Shown piece after piece: positions 3,290 to 38,835 of a DNA stretch of 64,000 nt. The DNA is from Actinomycetes bacterium. GTDB taxonomy: Bacteria; Actinomycetota; Acidimicrobiia; Acidimicrobiales; Acidimicrobilacustridaceae. The stretch covers positions 62,001 to 126,000 of the forward strand of contig JAKOVH010000021.1 of NCBI GenBank assembly GCA_029782145.1, given 5' to 3'. The notes below the pieces were generated by a model. The model did no database searches. It was not told the origin of the DNA and saw nothing but the letters and a program-made list of their open reading frames with translations. Position 1 is the stretch's first letter. Each line of letters opens with the position of its first letter. The position numbers and the translations under genes were made by a program.

Positions 3290-6200
3290 GTGTCGGGTCG
3301 GGTGGTTTCGTCGGGGTCAAGCGGTCGCCGCGGGTGGGCGTCGTGGCCGGTGCTGAGGGTGTCGTTGTCGGGAGCTGCGAAGGCGGATCAGCTGTCGAGG
3401 GGTCGGGGTCGTGCTCGCACCAGCGCGGCGCGGTGTCTGCTCGCCACGGCGCTGCTCGCTTCGTCGGTGTTCGCGAGTGTCGCTGTCACCACGGCGGCGG
3501 CGCCGCCGAGCAGCGCGACGGGAAGCCCGTCCTACGTGTCGCCCTCGTCGGATCCGGCGAAGGGCCCGAAGATGTGCTCCAACGTCGGGGTCGCTGGTGT
3601 GATGTACAGCCCGACCCGCCAGGAGTACGCGGCCGTGTACCTGCCGCAGGGAACCTCGAGCGTTTCGGCCAACTGGGACTACCACACGCTCCCGGGGTTC
3701 AACGCAGGCGTCGCGATGTACGTCTCTGTCGAAGCGTTCGACGCTGCGGTGGGAAGCGGCCCCCGAGTGGTGGACGTGAACAACTGGTCGGGCGACGCCA
3801 GCGGCACCACCACGACATCTGTCACGGTTCCCGCTGCTGGCTGGTACCGGCTGTCGATCAACACCCACCTGTACTGGTATGTGTCCGGCGATCCGGGGCC
3901 GGGCACGTGGAGCGTCCTGGTGAGCACCTCCGGGCAGCAGCCCTGCGCCCCGGGCGCGCTCGAGTTGTACTGCTCGTGCTCGGAAGCGGGCCATGCCACG
4001 AACGCCGGGTCGGCGAGGGACGGCGACCCGGTGGGGACCGCGGTCGGCAACGTCATGGAGGACGCGACCGATCTGGCTGTCCCGACGCGGGGCGGCCAGC
4101 TCGAGGTGCGCCGCTCCTACAACTCGCTGGTCGCGGGGAACGACTCGACGATCGGGTACGGGTGGGCGAACAACTGGTCGACCCATCTGCAGTTCGACGC
4201 CCCGGCCAGCGGTGACGTCTCGGTGTGGCAGCCGAGCGGGGTGCCGGTGGTGTTCTCACCCATGATGAACTCCGACGGCAGCGTCGGCGGGTACACCGCT
4301 GGCTCGTGGATCAACGCCACACTGACCAAGGCCGGCTCCGATGTCGTGTTCCAACTCAAGGACGGCCTGAAGTACACCTACGGGTCCGACGGCAAGTTGA
4401 GGACCATCACGAACCTCCAGGGCTACGTCACGAACTTCACCTACACCTCGGGGAACCTGAGCTCGGTCACCGACGCCGACTCGGGACGCAGCCTCGCGGT
4501 CACCTGGACCGGCGGTCGGATCCACACGATCACCGACGGCGCCAGCCGCAGCGTCACCTACGCGTACGACGGGTCCGGCAACCTGAGCGACGCGACCGAC
4601 GGCGGTGGGGCGCACTGGAAGTTCGGTTACGACGCCTCGCACCAGCTGACCTCGGTTCGTCATCCGAACCAGGTGGCGGCCAACGTCACCAACCAGGACG
4701 TGGTCAACACCTACACGTCGGGCAAGGTGACGTTGCAGACCGACAACCGGGTGTCGCCGGCGTTGGTCCGCCAGTTCGACTACACGACGATCCCCGGCGC
4801 GACCAAGATCATCGACCCGAAGGGCAATGTCCGGGTCGACTACTACACCGAGGGGCGGCGCACCAAGGTCGTCGACGGCTACGGCACGCCCGAAGCGGTG
4901 ACCCGCACGTTCACCTACGACCCCTCGACCGGCGCGGTCGCCACGGTTGCGGTCGGGGAAGGCGCCGGCGCGGTCACGGTGGCGACCAACCGCTATGACT
5001 CGTCGGGCGATCTCATCTCGAGCGCCGACGCCTTGTCGCGCACCACCAAGGCCACCTACAACGAGCACGGGCAGCCGCTCACCGTCACGGACCCGGCCGG
5101 GATCGTCACCACGTTCGACTACGGCAGCGACGGGCTCGGCACGCTCAAATCACAGTGCGCGCCATTGGGTCCGTTCCCGGCGGCGGGGGCCACGTTGACG
5201 TGCGGGGACAGCGGGACGACACCGTCACGAACGACGTGGACCTACGGTGACACGAACCATCCGGGTGATGTGACGATGGTGAAGTCCCCGACCCAGCAGG
5301 ACTCCGATGTGGGCGACTCGACCCGGTTCAGCTACGACGTCGATGGTCAGGTCAAGACCGTCACCGAGGCAGCCACCGCGGCGTTCCCGACCGGGACGAC
5401 GACCACCTACTGCTACGACAACGTGGGCCGGTTGACCTCGACGTACTCGCCGCGGGCGGGGACGGTCGCCTGCGGGGACGCGTCGGCGTTCAAGACCAGC
5501 TTCGCCGTGGACGGCTACGGGGCCGCCACCGGGATCACCGCCCCCTCCACCAACCCGGTCACGCGCAGCTTCGACGCCGAGCACAACGTGACTTCCGAAC
5601 AGGGCGCCGACGGGCACACCACCGCCTATGTGCGTGACGGAGCGGGCCGGCCCACCCAGACCCGACAGGCCGATGACACCGCGTCGCCGAGTGTGTCGCT
5701 GACCCGCTGGAACCCCGATGGGACGGTGCAGGAGACCGAGGACCCGGCCGGGAACATCACCCACTACGACTACGACCACGTCGGGCGGGTGATCGCCCAG
5801 ATCGACCCGTCGGGGACCCGGAACCACACCTACGACGCGTTCAGCAGGGTGGCGACGAGTCAGGACCCGGGCGGGAACTGCGCAGCCACCCCGAAGACGG
5901 GCTGCACCACGTTCGGCTATGACGCGGCGTCACGGCTGACCAGCATCGACTACAGCGATCCGCTCACCCAGGACATCACGGTCGGCTACGACCTCGATGG
6001 GCGCGTCACGTCTCGTGGGGGCGGGTCGACGGCCACGAGCCAGGTGTGGGACTCGCTGGGCCGGCTGGCCTCCTCGACCGTCGGTTCAGCGACAACGCAG
6101 TACGGGTATGACCTGGCGGGGCGGACCACGTCGATCACCTACCCGGGCTCCACGGTGCCCGTGGTGCGCAGCTACGACGCGGCGGGCCGCTGGATCGCCA

Positions 6201-9004
6201 GCATCGACGGCACCGGCAGCACCGCCACCACCGGCAACACCACCAGCTTCGGCTACGACGCCGATTCGAACTGGACGTCGACCACGTTCCCGTCGGCGGT
6301 CAACACCGACACCTACACCGTCGACAACGCCGGCCGACCCACCGCGATCACCTACACCCAGGGCGCCACGACGCTGGGGTCGTTGACCTACGGACGTGAC
6401 GGCGCCGGCCGGGTGACTTCCGAGACCGTCGCGACGCTCACCGCGGCGAGCTCGACCTACGGCTACAACGCGCTCGGCCAGCTCGACCGCGTCAACTCGA
6501 CCAGCCCCAACCTGGCCTACGACACGGCGAAGAACCTCACCTCCCAACCCGGGCAGGTGCAGCAGTTCAACGCGGCGAACCAGATCTGCTGGTCGGCGAC
6601 CTCCGGGTCCGGGTCGTGCACCGCGCCACCGACGGGCGCGACCCGCTACGGGTTCGACAACCGAGGGAACCGCACCTCGACCGACCCCGCCACCGGCGCC
6701 ACCAACGCGGCGACGTTCGACCAGGCCAACCGGTTGACCTCGGTCGCGGTCGAGGACCTCTCCGGCGACCAGTACACCTCGCTGTCCGCCGCGGTGAAGG
6801 TCCTCGACACCGGGTCGTCACCGACCGTCGGCAAATGCCCGACCTCCAACACCCAGTGCCTGCCGCTCAACGCCACCAACGGCAACACCCGGGAGGTGCA
6901 GATCGCCGGTGAGGCCGGGCTCCCCGCAGCGGGCCAGATCGGGGCGGTGGTGGTCAACATCGTCGCCACCGGCACCTGCACCAGCTGCGCCGGGGTTGTG
7001 TCGTTGTGGCCCAACGACGTCACCTTCCCGTGGACCACGAACGTCAACTACACCGGCACCGAGGCCGTCTCCAACACCGCCATCGTGCGCCTCCCCGCCG
7101 ATGGACGCCTCAAGGTGTACGCCACCGACGCCAACGTGCAGCTGTGGGTCTCGGGCTACTTCGCCCCGAACAACGGCACCTGGGACAACGCCTTCGAGGC
7201 GGTCAACCCCGCCAACATCGCCGGCACCTCGAGCACCCCGAGCTCGCAGTCCGGGGTGTGCTCACCCGATTGTGGGCGCTTCGCGGGCACCGGCACCGCC
7301 CCCGACACCAAGACCTTCGAGGTGCGCGGCCACGGCGGCATCCCCGCCACCGGCGTCACCGCCGTCGCGATCAACGTCGGGATCGTGAACCCCGCCGGTG
7401 ACGGCAACCTGCTCGTCGGCCCGTCGAACAACTGGCCCAGCCAGACCATCCCGTACCACAACGCCGAGCTCGGCTCGAACCTGCTCATCGTCCCCGTCGG
7501 CGCTGACGGCCGCATCGGGGTGTGGGCCTGGGGCGGCGCCGTCGACGTCCGCCTCGACGTGTACGGCTACTTCACCGGCGACCCCTCCGCCACCGGCGGC
7601 TACCACCCCCTCACCACCCAGACCACCATCATGCGCGGCGAGACCGGCGCCACCGCCATCGGGAAATGCCCCGACACCACCCACCCCTGTAGCCCGCTGG
7701 GCGCCGCCCAGACCATCACCGTCCAGGTCGGCGGCGAAGGCGGCATCCCCACCACCAACGTCGACTCGGTGGTGGTCAACCTCAGCGCCACCAGTACCAA
7801 CCCCGGCTGGATCGGCGTCTGGGCCGACGACGGCAGCCCCTACCCCGGCAACGTCACCCTCTACGAACCCGGCGGCGGCTCCACCAACACCGTCGCTACC
7901 ACCGCCACGGTCAAGGTCGGACCCACCGGACGCATCAAGATCTTCACCTGGGCCGCCACCGACCTCCGCATCGACACCTACGGCTACTTCACCCCCGCCG
8001 CCACAACCACCACCTACGCCTACGACAACGACGGCCTCCGCACCACCAAGACCACCCCCGACGGAACCACCACCACCTACACCTGGGACACAACCAACCC
8101 CCTCATCCCCCTCCTGCTCACCGAAACCACCGGCACCAACACCACCCGCTACATCTACGGCCCCGGCGGCACCCCCTACGAACAGATCAACCCCGACGGC
8201 ACCCTCACCTACCTCCACCGAGACCAACTCGGCTCCACCCGACTGCTCACCAATGCCAGCGGCACCAACATCGGCGAACGCGCTTACACCCCGTACGGCA
8301 AACCCTCCACCACCACCGGCACCGCCGCGACACCCTTCGGCTACGCCGGCCAATACACCGACACCGACACCGGCTACCAGTACCTCCGAGCCCGCTACTA
8401 CGACCCGCAGACCGGGCAATTCTTAGGCCAGGATCCTCTTGCGTCAATTACGCAGGATCCTTACGGCTATGCGCGGCGTAGCCCGCTGCAGTTCCGAGAC
8501 CCCAGTGGTTTGGACTGCGCCGATGCAAGTCGATCGGGCGACTGGGCCAACGGTGACTGTACCGAACCCTACAGCGAGTATCCGTTGGCTCTCTCAGGAC
8601 CGTCCGCCATTCCGGAGAGTCCGAACTGCGAGTATCAGAGGCAGCCGAATCTGCAGAACGGCGTTCCACTCGCCCAAAGCGAAGTTCCCAATACGGGCCT
8701 GGATCCTCTGTGGGGGATTGCACTGACCTATTGCGGCGGACCTTGTTTCACACTGACGTTGGCACCAGGGGGGATCTACCTTACGACTGGCGCGGTGGGC
8801 GCTCGAGGGGTGAGTGTAACCTTCCTTGGCGCGGTAGATGAATGCGCCAGCGAAGGGCAAGGACTTGAGATATCGGCCAATACTCCATGGATGATTGGCG
8901 GAACACTCTCGACAACCGGAAGCGGTATATCACTCGGGTCCCCGGGTGTGAGCGGCGGGCCGACTACGACTAGAAGGCTTTCGGGGACAGGTCCGCAGTG
9001 TTGA
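3290..9004 (+). CDS. secreted RHS/YD-repeat protein with three embedded VYGYFT-type modules and a variable C-terminal tip
   Basis: 1904 residues. The start is GTG 3290; a later start before the hydrophobic segment at residues about 48-70 (CLLATALLASSVFASVAVTTAAA, signal-peptide-like) is possible. Order: N-terminal beta region with YWYVSGDPGPGTWSV; DUF6531-like entry (GDPVGTAVGNV...LEVRRSYNS...GYGWANNW, about residues 245-305); many YD repeats (for example YDGSGNL, YDNVGRL, YDLAGR) to about residue 1150; three tandem modules of about 125 residues (about 1165-1565), ending in VSGYFAP, DVYGYFTG and DTYGYFTP; a last YD stretch; RHS core (YLHRDQLGSTR, ARYYDPQTGQFLGQDP) to about 1735; then a tip of about 165 residues of unknown function. 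RHS cores form shells that enclose a cargo tip. Downstream genes overlap or follow closely. Confidence 0.9.
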   Translation: MSGRVVSSGSSGRRGWASWPVLRVSLSGAAKADQLSRGRGRARTSAARCLLATALLASSVFASVAVTTAAAPPSSATGSPSYVSPSSDPAKGPKMCSNVGVAGVMYSPTRQEYAAVYLPQGTSSVSANWDYHTLPGFNAGVAMYVSVEAFDAAVGSGPRVVDVNNWSGDASGTTTTSVTVPAAGWYRLSINTHLYWYVSGDPGPGTWSVLVSTSGQQPCAPGALELYCSCSEAGHATNAGSARDGDPVGTAVGNVMEDATDLAVPTRGGQLEVRRSYNSLVAGNDSTIGYGWANNWSTHLQFDAPASGDVSVWQPSGVPVVFSPMMNSDGSVGGYTAGSWINATLTKAGSDVVFQLKDGLKYTYGSDGKLRTITNLQGYVTNFTYTSGNLSSVTDADSGRSLAVTWTGGRIHTITDGASRSVTYAYDGSGNLSDATDGGGAHWKFGYDASHQLTSVRHPNQVAANVTNQDVVNTYTSGKVTLQTDNRVSPALVRQFDYTTIPGATKIIDPKGNVRVDYYTEGRRTKVVDGYGTPEAVTRTFTYDPSTGAVATVAVGEGAGAVTVATNRYDSSGDLISSADALSRTTKATYNEHGQPLTVTDPAGIVTTFDYGSDGLGTLKSQCAPLGPFPAAGATLTCGDSGTTPSRTTWTYGDTNHPGDVTMVKSPTQQDSDVGDSTRFSYDVDGQVKTVTEAATAAFPTGTTTTYCYDNVGRLTSTYSPRAGTVACGDASAFKTSFAVDGYGAATGITAPSTNPVTRSFDAEHNVTSEQGADGHTTAYVRDGAGRPTQTRQADDTASPSVSLTRWNPDGTVQETEDPAGNITHYDYDHVGRVIAQIDPSGTRNHTYDAFSRVATSQDPGGNCAATPKTGCTTFGYDAASRLTSIDYSDPLTQDITVGYDLDGRVTSRGGGSTATSQVWDSLGRLASSTVGSATTQYGYDLAGRTTSITYPGSTVPVVRSYDAAGRWIASIDGTGSTATTGNTTSFGYDADSNWTSTTFPSAVNTDTYTVDNAGRPTAITYTQGATTLGSLTYGRDGAGRVTSETVATLTAASSTYGYNALGQLDRVNSTSPNLAYDTAKNLTSQPGQVQQFNAANQICWSATSGSGSCTAPPTGATRYGFDNRGNRTSTDPATGATNAATFDQANRLTSVAVEDLSGDQYTSLSAAVKVLDTGSSPTVGKCPTSNTQCLPLNATNGNTREVQIAGEAGLPAAGQIGAVVVNIVATGTCTSCAGVVSLWPNDVTFPWTTNVNYTGTEAVSNTAIVRLPADGRLKVYATDANVQLWVSGYFAPNNGTWDNAFEAVNPANIAGTSSTPSSQSGVCSPDCGRFAGTGTAPDTKTFEVRGHGGIPATGVTAVAINVGIVNPAGDGNLLVGPSNNWPSQTIPYHNAELGSNLLIVPVGADGRIGVWAWGGAVDVRLDVYGYFTGDPSATGGYHPLTTQTTIMRGETGATAIGKCPDTTHPCSPLGAAQTITVQVGGEGGIPTTNVDSVVVNLSATSTNPGWIGVWADDGSPYPGNVTLYEPGGGSTNTVATTATVKVGPTGRIKIFTWAATDLRIDTYGYFTPAATTTTYAYDNDGLRTTKTTPDGTTTTYTWDTTNPLIPLLLTETTGTNTTRYIYGPGGTPYEQINPDGTLTYLHRDQLGSTRLLTNASGTNIGERAYTPYGKPSTTTGTAATPFGYAGQYTDTDTGYQYLRARYYDPQTGQFLGQDPLASITQDPYGYARRSPLQFRDPSGLDCADASRSGDWANGDCTEPYSEYPLALSGPSAIPESPNCEYQRQPNLQNGVPLAQSEVPNTGLDPLWGIALTYCGGPCFTLTLAPGGIYLTTGAVGARGVSVTFLGAVDECASEGQGLEISANTPWMIGGTLSTTGSGISLGSPGVSGGPTTTRRLSGTGPQC

Positions 9005-9324: not shown

Positions 9325-9906
9325 GTGCAGAACCGTAGAACATGTGGCCTCCCGCCCGTCGGCTCGAGGCGGATAGGTCGAAGCGCGCTCCTGTGGCTAG
9401 CCATCGTGCTCCTTGTGGGCTGTGGTCACTCGGCAGGTGATGGCCCGAGCGCCGGGACTGACATGAGCCGTGCCGAGGAAACCCATGAAACCCAGCCAGT
9501 CGCGCAAGAGGCACAGGGCGTGATTGCGGCAAACGCTATCTGCAGCGAGACCAATCAGAGGATCCAAGAGTTCGCCGACCAGGTGCGGAGCGGTCCCAAG
9601 ACCCCGACCGCACTCTCCACGTTGCTCAATGGATACGCAGATCGTTACAGGGACGAGCACTCGGAGTTGTTCAGCCTGATCGTCCCGAAGGATCAAGCAC
9701 CGCAAGTGCAAGTGGTCGCGACCCTGGCCGGCGACTACATCAAGAAGATGCGGGAAGCTGCATCAACAGCGTTGAATGGTACCGATGCGCAGTACAGCCA
9801 GGTCGCAAGAGCGCTCAATGCCAGCGCCACGCGGCTCGACACCGCCTTTGAGGAACTGGGTTGGAGCGAGTGCGCCAAGGGCCCGGCGCTCACCCGACGA
9901 GCGTAG
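9325..9906 (+). CDS. island-encoded lipoprotein of unknown function
   Basis: 193 residues from GTG 9325, preceded by GAGGAG at 9311-9316. The N-terminus is basic (RRTCGLPPVGSRRIGRS) followed by ALLWLAIVLLVGC, a signal peptide with lipobox LVGC. The mature part is mostly helical, with amphipathic stretches and two later cysteines (NAICSETN, GWSECAKG) that could form a disulfide. No known domain was recognised. It follows the RHS tip and small membrane gene by 120 bp and shares their lower GC. An accessory or second immunity-like role is possible but unproven. Confidence 0.75.
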   Translation: MQNRRTCGLPPVGSRRIGRSALLWLAIVLLVGCGHSAGDGPSAGTDMSRAEETHETQPVAQEAQGVIAANAICSETNQRIQEFADQVRSGPKTPTALSTLLNGYADRYRDEHSELFSLIVPKDQAPQVQVVATLAGDYIKKMREAASTALNGTDAQYSQVARALNASATRLDTAFEELGWSECAKGPALTRRA

Positions 9907-10489: not shown

Positions 10490-10790
10490 AGCTGCTCGAC
10501 GGCCGGGTCGAGGCGTTCGCCCCGAAGGTCGGCGTGCGCGCCGCGTGCGCGGCGTTCGGGGTCAAGGAGCGCTCGTACCACCATCGCCGCCAACGTGACG
10601 AGGGTCGCTTGCGGTTGCCGCCACCAGCCGAGCCTCGGCCCCGCCGGCGGCACCCGGCATCACTGAGCGACACCGAGAAGAACCTGATCATCGAGACGTT
10701 GTGCTCGGAACGCTTCGTGGACCTCGCTCCGGCCCAGGTGTGCTCGACGCTGCTCGACGAAGGGGTCTACCTGTGCTCGGAACGCCAGAT
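10486..10790 (+). pseudogene. truncated IS3-family OrfB (first IS element)
   Basis: The reading frame from GTG 10486 shows the N-terminal part of an IS3-type OrfB (RAACAAFGVKERSYHHRRQR; LSDTEKNLIIETLCSERFVDLAPAQVCSTLLDEGVYLCSERQ) and is cut at 10790, where the inverted repeat of the second IS begins. The DDE catalytic core that should follow is absent and is not found on the other side of the second IS. Reading continues into IS sequence to a chance stop at 10851. Confidence 0.85.
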
Positions 10791-11773
10791 TGAATCAGCA
10801 CGGGTTCAGTGGAGGGCTGGTTCTCCCGACAGGGCTCGTGTCGGGTGTTGATGTGACGGTAGTGGTCCGCCTCGAACTCGATCGGGGTGACGTAGCCGAG
10901 AGCGGAGTGGATGCGGGTGTTGTTGAACCACCACACCCAGTTGAGGGTGGCGAGCTCGAGGTCGTCGGCGCCGCGCCAGGGGCCCTCGTGGTGGACGCAT
11001 TCGGTCTTGTAGAGCCCGATGTTCGACTCCGCGAGGGCGTTGTCGTAGCTGTCGCCGACGGTGCCGATCGACGCGACCGCTCCTGCGTCGGTGAGGCGTT
11101 CGCTGTAGCGGATCGACGTGTATTGGCTCCCGGCGTCGGAGTGGTGGACGAGCCCGTCGACGAGCTGGTCGGCCTGGGCTCGGGTCCACAGGGCCATCTC
11201 CAGGGCGTCGAGGGGCAACTCGGTGGGCATGGTGGCCTTGGTGCGCCAGCCGACGATGCGCCGGGAGAACACGTCGGTCACGAACGCGGTGAACACCGTG
11301 CCCGACCAGGTCGGCACGTAGGTGAAGTCCACGACCCACAACTCGTTCGGGCGGCCGGCGGTGAAGTCCCGCTTCACCAGGTCCGGTGGCCGCTCGATGC
11401 CCGACCCGGGGCGGGTCGTGACGAACCGTCGGCCCCGGCGCACGCCTCGCAGGCCGTTGGCCCGCATCAACCGTTCGACCTGGCAACACGGCACGTGCCC
11501 CAGCTCGGGGTGCTCGCCGCGGGCTTGTTCGCGGGCGAGTTCCTTGTAGACCTTGCGGGCCCCGTAGAGGCGACGACCGATCGTGGGCGACTCGTGCACC
11601 CGCACGACATGAGCCAACACGATCTCGTCGCGGATCGCCCGCGCCGACGGTGAGCGCTTCTTGGCGGCGTAGTAGGTGCTCGGAGCGATCTTGACGCCGT
11701 GCTCGGTGAGCACCCGACAAATCGGCTCGACTCCGAAGCGGTCCCGGTGATCCTCGATGAACGCGATCACCAC
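10688..11773 (-). CDS. IS3-family OrfB transposase (DDE integrase core)
   Basis: From GTG 11773 the protein has the HTH_21-like N-terminus (VIAFIEDHRDRFGVEPICRVL), then an rve core with the expected acidic residues: D in WVVDFTYVPTW, D in VHHSDAGSQYTS, and E in YDNALAESNIGLYKTE. It is expressed with OrfA by overlap or -1 frameshifting, as usual in IS3. Unusually, the frame has no stop inside the element: it reads through the inverted repeat (residues STEPVLIQ) and ends only at 10688 in antisense sequence of the first IS, adding about 35 foreign residues. The core itself looks intact. Confidence 0.9.
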   Translation of the reverse strand: MVIAFIEDHRDRFGVEPICRVLTEHGVKIAPSTYYAAKKRSPSARAIRDEIVLAHVVRVHESPTIGRRLYGARKVYKELAREQARGEHPELGHVPCCQVERLMRANGLRGVRRGRRFVTTRPGSGIERPPDLVKRDFTAGRPNELWVVDFTYVPTWSGTVFTAFVTDVFSRRIVGWRTKATMPTELPLDALEMALWTRAQADQLVDGLVHHSDAGSQYTSIRYSERLTDAGAVASIGTVGDSYDNALAESNIGLYKTECVHHEGPWRGADDLELATLNWVWWFNNTRIHSALGYVTPIEFEADHYRHINTRHEPCRENQPSTEPVLIQSGVPSTGRPLRRAASSTPGPERGPRSVPSTTSR

Positions 11774-12144
11774 GGCAGTCGAGGGTCGAGCTCCCTCGCG
11801 AAGAAACTCGACGCCGCCAACAAGATCTCGTTGGCCCGCTTGAGTTCCTTGACCTCTTGGCGCAGCGCCTTGAGCTCCGCCGCCTCGGTCGTCGTGGTCC
11901 CCGGTCGGCGGCCCGTGTCGATCTCGGCCTGCTTGGCCCAGGTCCGCAACGTGTCCGGGTTCACCCCGACCCGAGGCCCGATCCGCTGCACCGCCGCGTT
12001 CAACGACAACGCCTCATCCTCGGACCGAGCCTCGAGCACGAGACGGACCGCCCGCTCCCGCAACTCCTCCGGGTACTTCCTCGGTGCTGGCATGACTCCA
12101 CCTTTCCGTGGGATCGATGCCTCCACAAGACCCGTGCTGATTCA
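10791..12144 (-). mobile_element. IS3-family insertion sequence, 1354 bp
   Basis: Terminal inverted repeats TGAATCAGCACGGGTT (10791-10806) and its complement at 12129-12144 match at 15 of 16 positions. It encodes overlapping orfA (minus, 11767-12093) and orfB (minus, frame shifted by -1), the normal IS3 arrangement. The bases just outside the two ends (GAT on the left, GTC on the right) show no target-site duplication, so a deletion or recombination probably occurred next to the element, removing the rest of the first IS. Confidence 0.85.
11767..12093 (-). CDS. IS3-family OrfA transposase
   Basis: 108 residues from ATG 12093, preceded by AGGTGG, so this start is preferred to an upstream in-frame one at 12126. 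The sequence has the typical YPEELRERAVRLVLEA helix, the HTH segment RVGVNPDTLRTWAKQAEIDTG and a C-terminal leucine zipper-like helix (EAAELKALRQEVKELKRANEILL). It overlaps the OrfB start by 7 bp. It represents the DNA-binding half of the two-part transposase. Confidence 0.9.
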   Translation of the reverse strand: MPAPRKYPEELRERAVRLVLEARSEDEALSLNAAVQRIGPRVGVNPDTLRTWAKQAEIDTGRRPGTTTTEAAELKALRQEVKELKRANEILLAASSFFARELDPRLPW

Positions 12145-36394: not shown

Positions 36395-36484
36395 CCGGGG
36401 GGCGACGACGGCGCCCGAACCGTCGGTGCCCCACCCGTGCTGGCACTAGCCTCGCCCGGGTCCGGCGACCCGGGAGGGGGCGAG

Positions 36485-38092
36485 GTGAGCGAGGTCCATC
36501 GGTTCGTGGTGACCGGCGCGGGCGACCCCTCGGCGGTGCTCGCCGGCCTGGCCGAGCGGGCCGGGTTGCGGGTGGTGAGCTCGACCGTGGTGGAGCGGAC
36601 CTTCCTCGACACCGCCGACGGCCGCCTCGACGCGGCGGGCATCGTGCTCGAGCTGCGCCGCCCTCTCGAGGGGGGCGCCTCACCGACCCTGGTGTGGGTG
36701 GAGGCCGAGCGCCTGGTGGCCACCGCCCCGCTCGACGCCCCGACGGCGCCGCGGTTCGCCTCCGACCTGCCGCCCTGGCCGGGCGCGCCGCACCTGGCGT
36801 CGCTGATGGAGATGCGCGCGCTGGTGCCCGGACCGGTGACGCGTAGCCGGCTCACCACGTTGGCCGCCCTCGACCGGGAGGAGAAGACCACCGCACGGGT
36901 GGTCGTGGACGCGTCGGCGCTGCCCGACGGCACGGAGCTGCCCGTGCTGCTCGAGGTGCACCAGCTGCGCGGCTACCAGCGCGAAGCCGAGAAGCTCGAG
37001 AAGCTGCTCGTCGCCCGGCTGGCGCTCGAGCCGACCACGACCACGGCCGCGGCCAACGCCCGCCGGCTCGCCGGGGCGCCGGCGTTCCTGCGCTCCAAGC
37101 TTCGGCTCTCGCTCGACCCGACCGCCGTCGCGGCCGACGCCTGGCGGGACGTGCTGCGGGAGCTGACCGCCGCCATGACGGCGAACTTCGCCGGGACGCT
37201 GGCCGACACCGACTCGGAGTTCCTGCACGACTTCCGGGTGGCGGTGCGCCGCACCCGTTCCGTGCTGCAGGAGGGCAAGGGGGTGCTGCCGCCGGGGGCT
37301 CGCGCCCACTTCCGCGCCGGCTTCAAATGGCTGGGCGACATCACCACCCCCCAGCGCGACGCCGACGTGCACCTGCTCGACCTCCCCGGCCTGGTGCAGC
37401 TCCTGCCGGCTGACCGGGTCGACGCCCTCGAACCGCTGCACGAGCTGCTCGTCGAGCGCCAACGGGCCTGCCACGAGCAGCTCGTCGGCGACCTCCGCTC
37501 GTGGCGGCGGGCCCGGCTGGGACAGGAGTGGGCGGCGTTCCTCGACGGCGACGGCCCCTGGCCGCCGGACAGCCTCGACGGCGACGGCGGTCATCCCGAC
37601 GGGCCACCAGGCGCCGACGCGCCCGACGCCTCGCGCCCGGCGATCGTGGTGGCCGCCGCCCGCATCCGCAAGGCCCACCGCCGCCTCGTGCGCGACGGCC
37701 GGGCGATCCACGCCGGCTCTCCGGCCACCGCGCTGCACGACCTGCGCAAGGACGCCAAGCGGCTGCGCTACCTGCTCGAGTGCTTCGGCTCGCTCTTCCC
37801 GACCGGCGACGTGTCGGTGGCCGTCAAGCCGCTCAAGGCCCTGCAGGACACCCTCGGCACGTTCCAGGACACCGAGGTCCAGGCCCACGCCCTCGAGGGC
37901 TTCGGTGACGAGCTCGTGCAGCGAGGGGCGGGCGCGCCCACCCTGCTCGCCCTCGGCGCGGTGATCGAGCACGTCTCGGCCCGCGGGGCCGCCGCCCGCC
38001 GGCAGTACGCCGAGCGCTTCGGCGCCTTCGACAGCCGCGCCGTGCGCGGCGCCTACGAGCGGCTCTCCGACGACGCGGAGGCCGCCACGTGA
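36485..38092 (+). CDS. CYTH-like/CHAD domain protein (polyphosphate-associated)
   Basis: 535 residues from GTG 36485. Residues about 1-205 look like a CYTH tunnel domain (VHRFVVTGAG, VVERTFLDTADGRLDAAGIVLELRRP, LPVLLEVHQLRGY), but the usual ExExK start is degenerate. Residues about 220-530 form a CHAD domain with its two basic helices, LHDFRVAVRRTRSVLQEG and LHDLRKDAKRLRYLLECF, whose conserved His/Arg/Lys bind polyphosphate in characterised members. An acidic insert of about 40 residues (PWPPDSLDGDGGHPDG) divides the CHAD halves. The stop overlaps the ParA-like gene by 4 bp. Confidence 0.9.
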   Translation: MSEVHRFVVTGAGDPSAVLAGLAERAGLRVVSSTVVERTFLDTADGRLDAAGIVLELRRPLEGGASPTLVWVEAERLVATAPLDAPTAPRFASDLPPWPGAPHLASLMEMRALVPGPVTRSRLTTLAALDREEKTTARVVVDASALPDGTELPVLLEVHQLRGYQREAEKLEKLLVARLALEPTTTTAAANARRLAGAPAFLRSKLRLSLDPTAVAADAWRDVLRELTAAMTANFAGTLADTDSEFLHDFRVAVRRTRSVLQEGKGVLPPGARAHFRAGFKWLGDITTPQRDADVHLLDLPGLVQLLPADRVDALEPLHELLVERQRACHEQLVGDLRSWRRARLGQEWAAFLDGDGPWPPDSLDGDGGHPDGPPGADAPDASRPAIVVAAARIRKAHRRLVRDGRAIHAGSPATALHDLRKDAKRLRYLLECFGSLFPTGDVSVAVKPLKALQDTLGTFQDTEVQAHALEGFGDELVQRGAGAPTLLALGAVIEHVSARGAAARRQYAERFGAFDSRAVRGAYERLSDDAEAAT

Positions 38093-38835
38093 AGGTGCTC
38101 GCCACCTACAACATCAAAGGCGGCGTGGGGAAGACGGCCACCGCGGTGAACCTGGCCTACGAGGCCGCCATCCGGGGGCACCGGGTGCTCGTGTGGGACC
38201 TCGACCCGCAGGGCGCCGCCACCTTCTACTTCCGCATCCGCCCGAAGGTGAAGGGAGGCGGCAAGGCGCTGGTGTCGGGGCGGCGGGTGCTCGACGAGAT
38301 CATCAAGGCGAGCGACTACGAGAACCTCGACGTGGTGCCCGCCGACTTCTCGATGCGCAACCTCGACCTGCTCCTCGAGGGCTCGAAGAAGCCGCTGGCC
38401 ACCCTGCGCCGCCTGCTCAAGAGCGTCGCCCACGAGTACGACCTGGTGTTCCTCGACTGCCCGCCCAGCATCTCGTTGGCGTCGGAGAGCGTGTTCCGCG
38501 CCGCCGACGCCCTGCTCGTGCCGGTGATCCCGACGACGCTGTCGATCCGGACCTTCGAGCAGCTCGACCGGTTCGTGGAGGAGAACCCCGAGGTCGTCGA
38601 GGAGCTCGACGTCATCGGGTTCTTCTCGATGGTCGACCGGCGCAAGCGGCTGCACCGGGAGCTGCTCGTCGACCTCCGCCAGGTTCGGCCCGACCTGCTC
38701 GACGCCGTCATCCCGGCCATCACCGACATCGAGCGCATGGGTGTCCACCGCCAGCCCGTCGCCGCCTTCGCGCCGGGCACCCGCTCGGCGCGTGCGTACT
38801 CGGCGCTGTGGACGGAGATCAACGAGCGCCTCTAG
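38089..38835 (+). CDS. orphan ParA/MinD-type ATPase coupled to the CHAD protein
   Basis: 248 residues from GTG 38089. The deviant Walker A motif KGGVGKTATAVNLA, the DLDPQGAATFYF segment and DCPPSISLASES (Walker B) identify a ParA-family ATPase. No ParB gene, parS-like repeats or plasmid functions are nearby. ParA-type ATPases position cargo on the nucleoid, not only DNA. Coupled translation with a CHAD protein (GTGA overlap) suggests that its cargo or partner is the CHAD protein, perhaps on polyphosphate bodies. That role is inference. Confidence 0.9.
   Translation: MKVLATYNIKGGVGKTATAVNLAYEAAIRGHRVLVWDLDPQGAATFYFRIRPKVKGGGKALVSGRRVLDEIIKASDYENLDVVPADFSMRNLDLLLEGSKKPLATLRRLLKSVAHEYDLVFLDCPPSISLASESVFRAADALLVPVIPTTLSIRTFEQLDRFVEENPEVVEELDVIGFFSMVDRRKRLHRELLVDLRQVRPDLLDAVIPAITDIERMGVHRQPVAAFAPGTRSARAYSALWTEINERL

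Follow-up and report, generated by a model that had tools for sequence, protein, structure and literature searches.

In reviews, the example of a protein that keeps polyphosphate (polyP) granules spaced on the nucleoid is AlgP of Pseudomonas aeruginosa (PMC9239181, PMC13052382); according to the 2025 review that names AlgP for this spacing, it is not known if the process requires ATP (PMC13052382). Polyphosphate is not mentioned in a 2023 analysis that covered seven ParA/MinD ATPases of a single bacterium (PMC10241942). On the side of polyP binding, CtCHAD has been crystallized with the polymer (6qva), which is touched in the crystal by H253, R256, R260 and R296, residues that were also mutated by Lorenzo-Orts et al. 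(PMC6537752). A folD–ppk–parA–CHAD cluster was reported to be highly conserved in Acidithiobacillus in 2019 and again in 2024, and the accessible parts of these two papers propose no positioning role for its parA; the remark in the preliminary description of the present locus that no described system of this type was known therefore stands, within those parts, for the mechanism and fails for the neighbourhood, since parA–CHAD–ppk had already been reported there (PMC6416229, PMC10892726). A search confined to open-access papers found no further report of CHAD with ParA.

The window, the whole 64-kb stretch of DNA that was analysed, lies on contig C33 of a 4.2-Mb actinobacterial genome and carries a CHAD gene followed by a parA gene, with the features listed below.

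36473..36481, + strand: GGGAGGGGG, a Shine–Dalgarno-like run 5′ of the GTG at 36485, by direct sequence reading
36485..38092, + strand: TTM(CYTH-like)–CHAD protein, 535 residues; GTG start, TGA stop; PF05235, E 5e-51
37529..37625, + strand: acidic disordered insert in the CHAD domain, approximately residues 349–381; mid-stretch pLDDT 54–66, no orthologue consensus
38089..38092, + strand: 4-bp GTGA overlap of CHAD stop and ParA start, by sequence; translational coupling
38089..38835, + strand: ParA-family ATPase of the CHAD-linked subfamily, 248 residues; GTG start, TAG stop; AAA_31, 5e-36, with KGGVGKT

The pairing of a CHAD protein with a ParA ATPase through a 4-bp overlap, as first described, is thus borne out. 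The mechanical ORF of the CHAD gene begins at 36437, and the GTG at 36485 is favoured as the start because the GGGAGGGGG run lies just upstream of it. The pair is flanked on its 5′ side by a small ORF lacking a Pfam match and an aldehyde dehydrogenase gene, and on its 3′ side by gluQRS and genes for an ArsC-like and a GGDEF–EAL protein; no gene for a polyP enzyme was found adjoining it in the window. No sigma-70 promoter or terminator consensus was found around the pair, a result that is uninformative in this GC-rich genome. Elsewhere, the window contains tandem tRNA-Ser genes with anticodons GCT and TGA (2715–2916, − strand), a gene for a 1904-residue RHS-repeat protein with a DUF6531 domain (3290–9001, + strand) followed by a 193-residue ORF with no Pfam match (9325–9903), and an IS3-type element (10688–12123, − strand) made up of an integrase ORF and an upstream ORF, in which an ALIL pseudoknot (Rfam RF01497, 11681–11808) marks programmed frameshifting.

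The absence of ParB and parS from the vicinity of the pair was also confirmed. No parS-like site with up to three mismatches occurs in the 64 kb, and the two ParB_N matches of the genome are on contigs C12 and C29, its chromosomal ParABS being located on another contig than the pair. No convincing centromere-like repeats surround the two genes, those repeats that were found being coding-sequence similarities. These results support a pair that is separate from ParABS.

Pfam places the CHAD domain at residues 239–486 of the long ORF and returns no match for an N-terminal CYTH/TTM domain. The AlphaFold2 model, calculated with 58 orthologues (pLDDT 93), is composed of a degenerate TTM domain (approximately residues 1–200) and a long-type CHAD domain (approximately residues 202–532), so that the CYTH-like domain claimed in the preliminary description is recovered as a TTM fold, although it is invisible to Pfam. 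The VIA-align fold comparison mainly covers the TTM part and, among the matches listed, aligns residues 1–200 of the model with many TTM enzymes at Z scores of approximately 12–16 and 9–15% identity (best match: Z up to 15.7, 2.9 Å over 172 residues). Residues 202–532 superpose on CtCHAD (6qv7) with a Z score of 34.9 and an r.m.s.d. of 2.0 Å over 314 residues, at 35% identity. H248, R251, R255 and R291, which correspond respectively to the CtCHAD residues H253, R256, R260 and R296, are invariant in 58/58 orthologues. With both the CHAD domain and the polyP-contacting His and Arg residues in place, the protein is a putative member of the CHAD phosins.

The catalytic ExExK motif on strand 1 of the TTM domain is absent, with no conservation across the 58 orthologues, and from this loss the domain is judged to be catalytically dead. 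It retains other conserved features, namely a D(T/S)FDW motif, R111, K134 and G163–Y164, and because its residues are conserved it is a better candidate for contacting ParA than the basic N terminus or the acidic insert, the two sites proposed earlier. Both of these are unlikely: the first 20 residues have a mean net charge of −0.2 over the 58 orthologues and contain no conserved motif, and the insert, besides its low pLDDT, is unconserved in orthologues. A ParB-like basic peptide was looked for at the N and C termini of the CHAD protein in the same 58 orthologues and is absent, and no natural CHAD–ParA or PPK–CHAD fusion occurs among loci L023–L129.

A ParA at least 56% identical to that of the window is encoded in 18 of 41 genomes of the order, and in 18/18 of these loci CHAD lies immediately upstream on the same strand, whereas none of ten paralogous ParA loci of the same order, used as controls, has a CHAD gene nearby. 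A ParA profile scan of 84,980 species genomes yielded 80 loci; among the 75 with enough upstream sequence, CHAD lies within 250 nt upstream in 52 and within 3 kb in 3 more. Neighbourhoods were defined by profile matches on six-frame ORFs, because gene calling by sequence composition put several genes of high-GC loci in the wrong place. Adjacent pairs carry approximately nine phylum-level labels (Actinomycetota, Calditrichota, Chlorobiota, Pseudomonadota, Thermodesulfobacteriota, Verrucomicrobiota, KSB1, Anaeroferrophillacea and one Methanophagales metagenome-assembled genome), and the identical 4-bp overlap recurs in 38 of the 64 CHAD-adjacent pairs of the combined tree set. The pair is also present in cultured organisms, for example Methylotuvimicrobium buryatense 5G. 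The locus labelled as a Methanophagales archaeon (L096) has the order ppk1–CHAD–parA and may represent mis-binned bacterial DNA or horizontal transfer. Adjacency in this genome alone, named beforehand as an outcome that would count against the proposal, is excluded by this wide conservation. Adjacency counts from the contig scan are biased to query-like sequences, and for this reason searches of evenly drawn samples were added. Within the sample from actinobacteria, ParA adjacency holds for each of the seven CHADs with the best matches to the linked profile (E < 1e-140) but not for the eighth (1e-111); since linked CHADs went into the making of that profile, the agreement is in part circular.

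The pair is repeatedly found with polyP genes. By a crude estimate, ppk1 would be expected within the examined flanks of approximately 0.3 of the 80 loci, versus 13 observed. It is present in 46/48 ParA-positive genomes, the two without it being 72% and 79% complete; in the genome of the window, the only ppk1 is on contig C17, not beside the pair. In one genome (G246), sixA, ppk1 (confirmed by PF02503), CHAD, parA, CYTH and Nudix genes form a one-strand operon. The compact sixA–ppk1–CHAD–parA–CYTH–Nudix arrangement was seen in two actinobacterial genomes (L037:2209-8020 and L050), and its separate CYTH gene could be the source of the triphosphatase activity lost by the TTM domain of the CHAD protein. 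On contig C17 of the window genome (L049, G000:C17:20000-33000), a second CHAD gene, distantly related to the first, comes after the sole ppk1, a layout resembling the ppk–CHAD arrangement of Streptomyces PptA. CtCHAD branches with a Chlorobiaceae CHAD that is both ParA-linked and ppk1-linked (78% identity, SH-aLRT 99), and by this placement it is a member of the ParA-linked CHAD family. Of the two long CHADs of this family encoded in one Chlorobium genome, the first adjoins parA and the other lies immediately upstream of ppk1 (L131, G344:C1:412000-420000; L106). In Methylobacter-type genomes in which parA is separated from CHAD, 8/8 examined keep one CHAD elsewhere, and the seven of these placed on the tree (L132–L138) all fall in the ParA-linked clade. 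The ppk1 neighbourhoods and the invariant polyP-binding residues support a tie between the pair and polyP metabolism.

The ATPase is predicted with a pLDDT of 88, and its closest folds are Soj/ParA proteins (Foldseek TM scores of 0.83 to TtSoj 2bek and 0.86 to 8ray). In 53/53 ParAs there is no variation at the P-loop lysines K10 and K15 or at the hydrolytic D39. A single long-branched clade (SH-aLRT 96–100) unites the CHAD-linked ParAs with their close kin and is marked by residues unseen in canonical ParA: R49, D86-x-S-x-R90, IPTTLSxRT, K186, H189 and E215-x-M-G-x-x-R221. Position 185, equivalent to the Arg of the Soj motif MYDGR, is Arg in 45 and Lys in 3 of the 53 sequences, with K186 and H189 added next to it, whereas the second Soj DNA-binding motif, RNVRLSEAP, is replaced in the clade by YASDVERMG..R.P; the putative nucleoid-binding surface is thus Soj-like only in part. 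Members of the family end a few residues past a conserved LW with no tail after the last helix, the protein of the window terminating in LWTEINERL, and a C-terminal amphipathic membrane-targeting extension of the MinD type is, from sequence only, absent.

Gene coupling, deep conservation, the intact ATPase motif and polyP residues, the lost TTM motif and the ppk1 association are direct observations, and a functional link between CHAD and ParA is nearly certain. We favour, with some confidence, an interpretation of the pair as a McdAB-like cargo-positioning module for polyP granules in which TTM–CHAD would serve as the adaptor. A positioning mechanism is probable, and for it we infer CHAD–ParA contact, activation, nucleoid binding and granule movement. 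TTM–CHAD would coat polyP granules via its CHAD domain, polyP binding in vitro being known for a Chlorobium member of the family, and the co-translated ParA would, as expected from its family, bind ATP, dimerize and load onto the nucleoid. Granule-bound TTM–CHAD would then contact ParA–ATP, most likely by its dead TTM domain or by a CHAD surface, and this contact would stimulate hydrolysis, leading to granule spacing or inheritance by a diffusion ratchet, as in McdA/McdB or ParA/ParB. The broadest form of the proposal, which we consider evenly balanced between right and wrong, is a widespread ATP-driven positioning system for polyP granules, extending from Actinomycetota to Chlorobiota and Pseudomonadota, in which the dead TTM–CHAD phosin would be both granule coat and activator of ParA, acting via a folded domain and without a basic peptide of the ParB/McdB type. 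The lack of a membrane-targeting tail on ParA, the retention of its catalytic lysines and aspartate and the separateness from ParABS count for the positioning model; the lack of a ParB-like basic peptide, the partial replacement of the Soj DNA-binding motif and the low frequency of CHAD adjacency in Pseudomonadota count against it.

The main rival to positioning is a metabolic or assembly role, in which the ATPase would be a switch or chaperone that binds TTM–CHAD and controls polyP synthesis, granule nucleation, coat formation or PPK1 activity without moving granules on the nucleoid. The ParA-family member BcsQ, which supports cellulose synthase, acts in this way, and BcsQ folds are among the matches of the ParA model; the ppk1, sixA, CYTH and Nudix neighbours suit metabolism as much as positioning, and the partly replaced Soj motif also agrees with such a role. 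However, Soj/ParA folds are nearer to the model than BcsQ folds, and the basic DNA-binding position R185 is kept and reinforced in CHAD-linked members; we regard this role as unlikely, if still worth weighing.

Information might instead flow in reverse, from a CHAD protein that senses polyP to a ParA with the nucleoid or the cell cycle as its target, and chromosome organization would then follow the phosphate or energy state. In Caulobacter, granule placement follows chromosome segregation (review PMC13052382), and conservation of the pair does not depend on ParABS; set against this, the window has neither a parS nor a ParB gene linked to the pair, the recurrent neighbours of which are polyP genes, and we regard this direction as improbable.

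A different cargo for the ParA clade, with CHAD as one of several adaptors or as an incidental operon partner, is suggested by the evenly drawn sample of 299 Pseudomonadota genomes, in which 61 (approximately a fifth) encode a ParA of the clade and only 5 of these 61 have it adjacent to CHAD, leaving 56 without. ParAs of the clade can therefore work without a linked CHAD, and across the whole clade there may consequently be more than one kind of cargo. In addition, 10 of 20 orphan loci examined (among L188–L207) belong to a subclade that has Cys (once Gly) at position 49 and no Arg at position 185, having lost both R49 and R185. Yet CHAD is encoded somewhere in the genome in 51/61 ParA-positive (84%) versus 15/39 ParA-negative (38%) Pseudomonadota genomes (Fisher p ≈ 8e-6, with genomes treated as unrelated), and adjacency with the conserved 4-bp overlap recurs across phyla; we regard this explanation as highly improbable. 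ParA genes are often mobile and no ParB gene is near, but a plasmid-partition remnant beside CHAD by chance, to which we attach practically no weight, is refuted by the conservation of the pair in 18/18 near relatives and in approximately nine phyla, which makes chance adjacency negligible.

Under the preferred positioning model, the pair is a conserved candidate ATPase and adaptor for polyP granule positioning in many phyla. A polyP-bound crystal structure from the same adaptor family and the existence of cultured members make granule spacing and inheritance directly testable, and, if the model is true, polyP granules may prove to be a further cargo of ParA proteins, alongside carboxysomes and plasmids.

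Among known systems, the pair resembles McdA/McdB in its ParA/MinD-type ATPase gene beside the gene of a protein that associates with cargo, in the absence of ParB and parS and in the nucleoid scaffold proposed for it. It differs in its adaptor, a folded TTM–CHAD protein rather than the small, disordered McdB, in its recurrent neighbours (ppk1, sixA, CYTH and Nudix genes, whereas McdAB lies beside carboxysome or Rubisco genes) and in its ATPase, whose modelled structure resembles Soj more than McdA. With ParABS (Soj/Spo0J) it has in common the ParA fold, the deviant Walker A motif and the catalytic Asp, but it lacks ParB and parS, and R49, R90, LSxRT and E215–R221 replace canonical motifs. MinD differs from the ATPase of the window in its C-terminal membrane-targeting extension, a distinction judged from the primary structure. 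The TTM domain has the fold of TTM/CYTH phosphohydrolases and cyclases without their catalytic ExExK. The CHAD phosins (CtCHAD, PptA, the R. eutropha CHAD proteins and ygiF) have the same polyP-binding domain and basic residues, CtCHAD falling in the same clade, whereas the CHAD of the window is linked to ParA and its TTM domain has no ExExK; Streptomyces PptA is ppk-linked, with no ParA described there. AlgP, in contrast, is a histone-H1-like tether and involves no ATPase. The Acidithiobacillus cluster, as far as its published gene content allows the comparison, has the same genes as the pair together with ppk.
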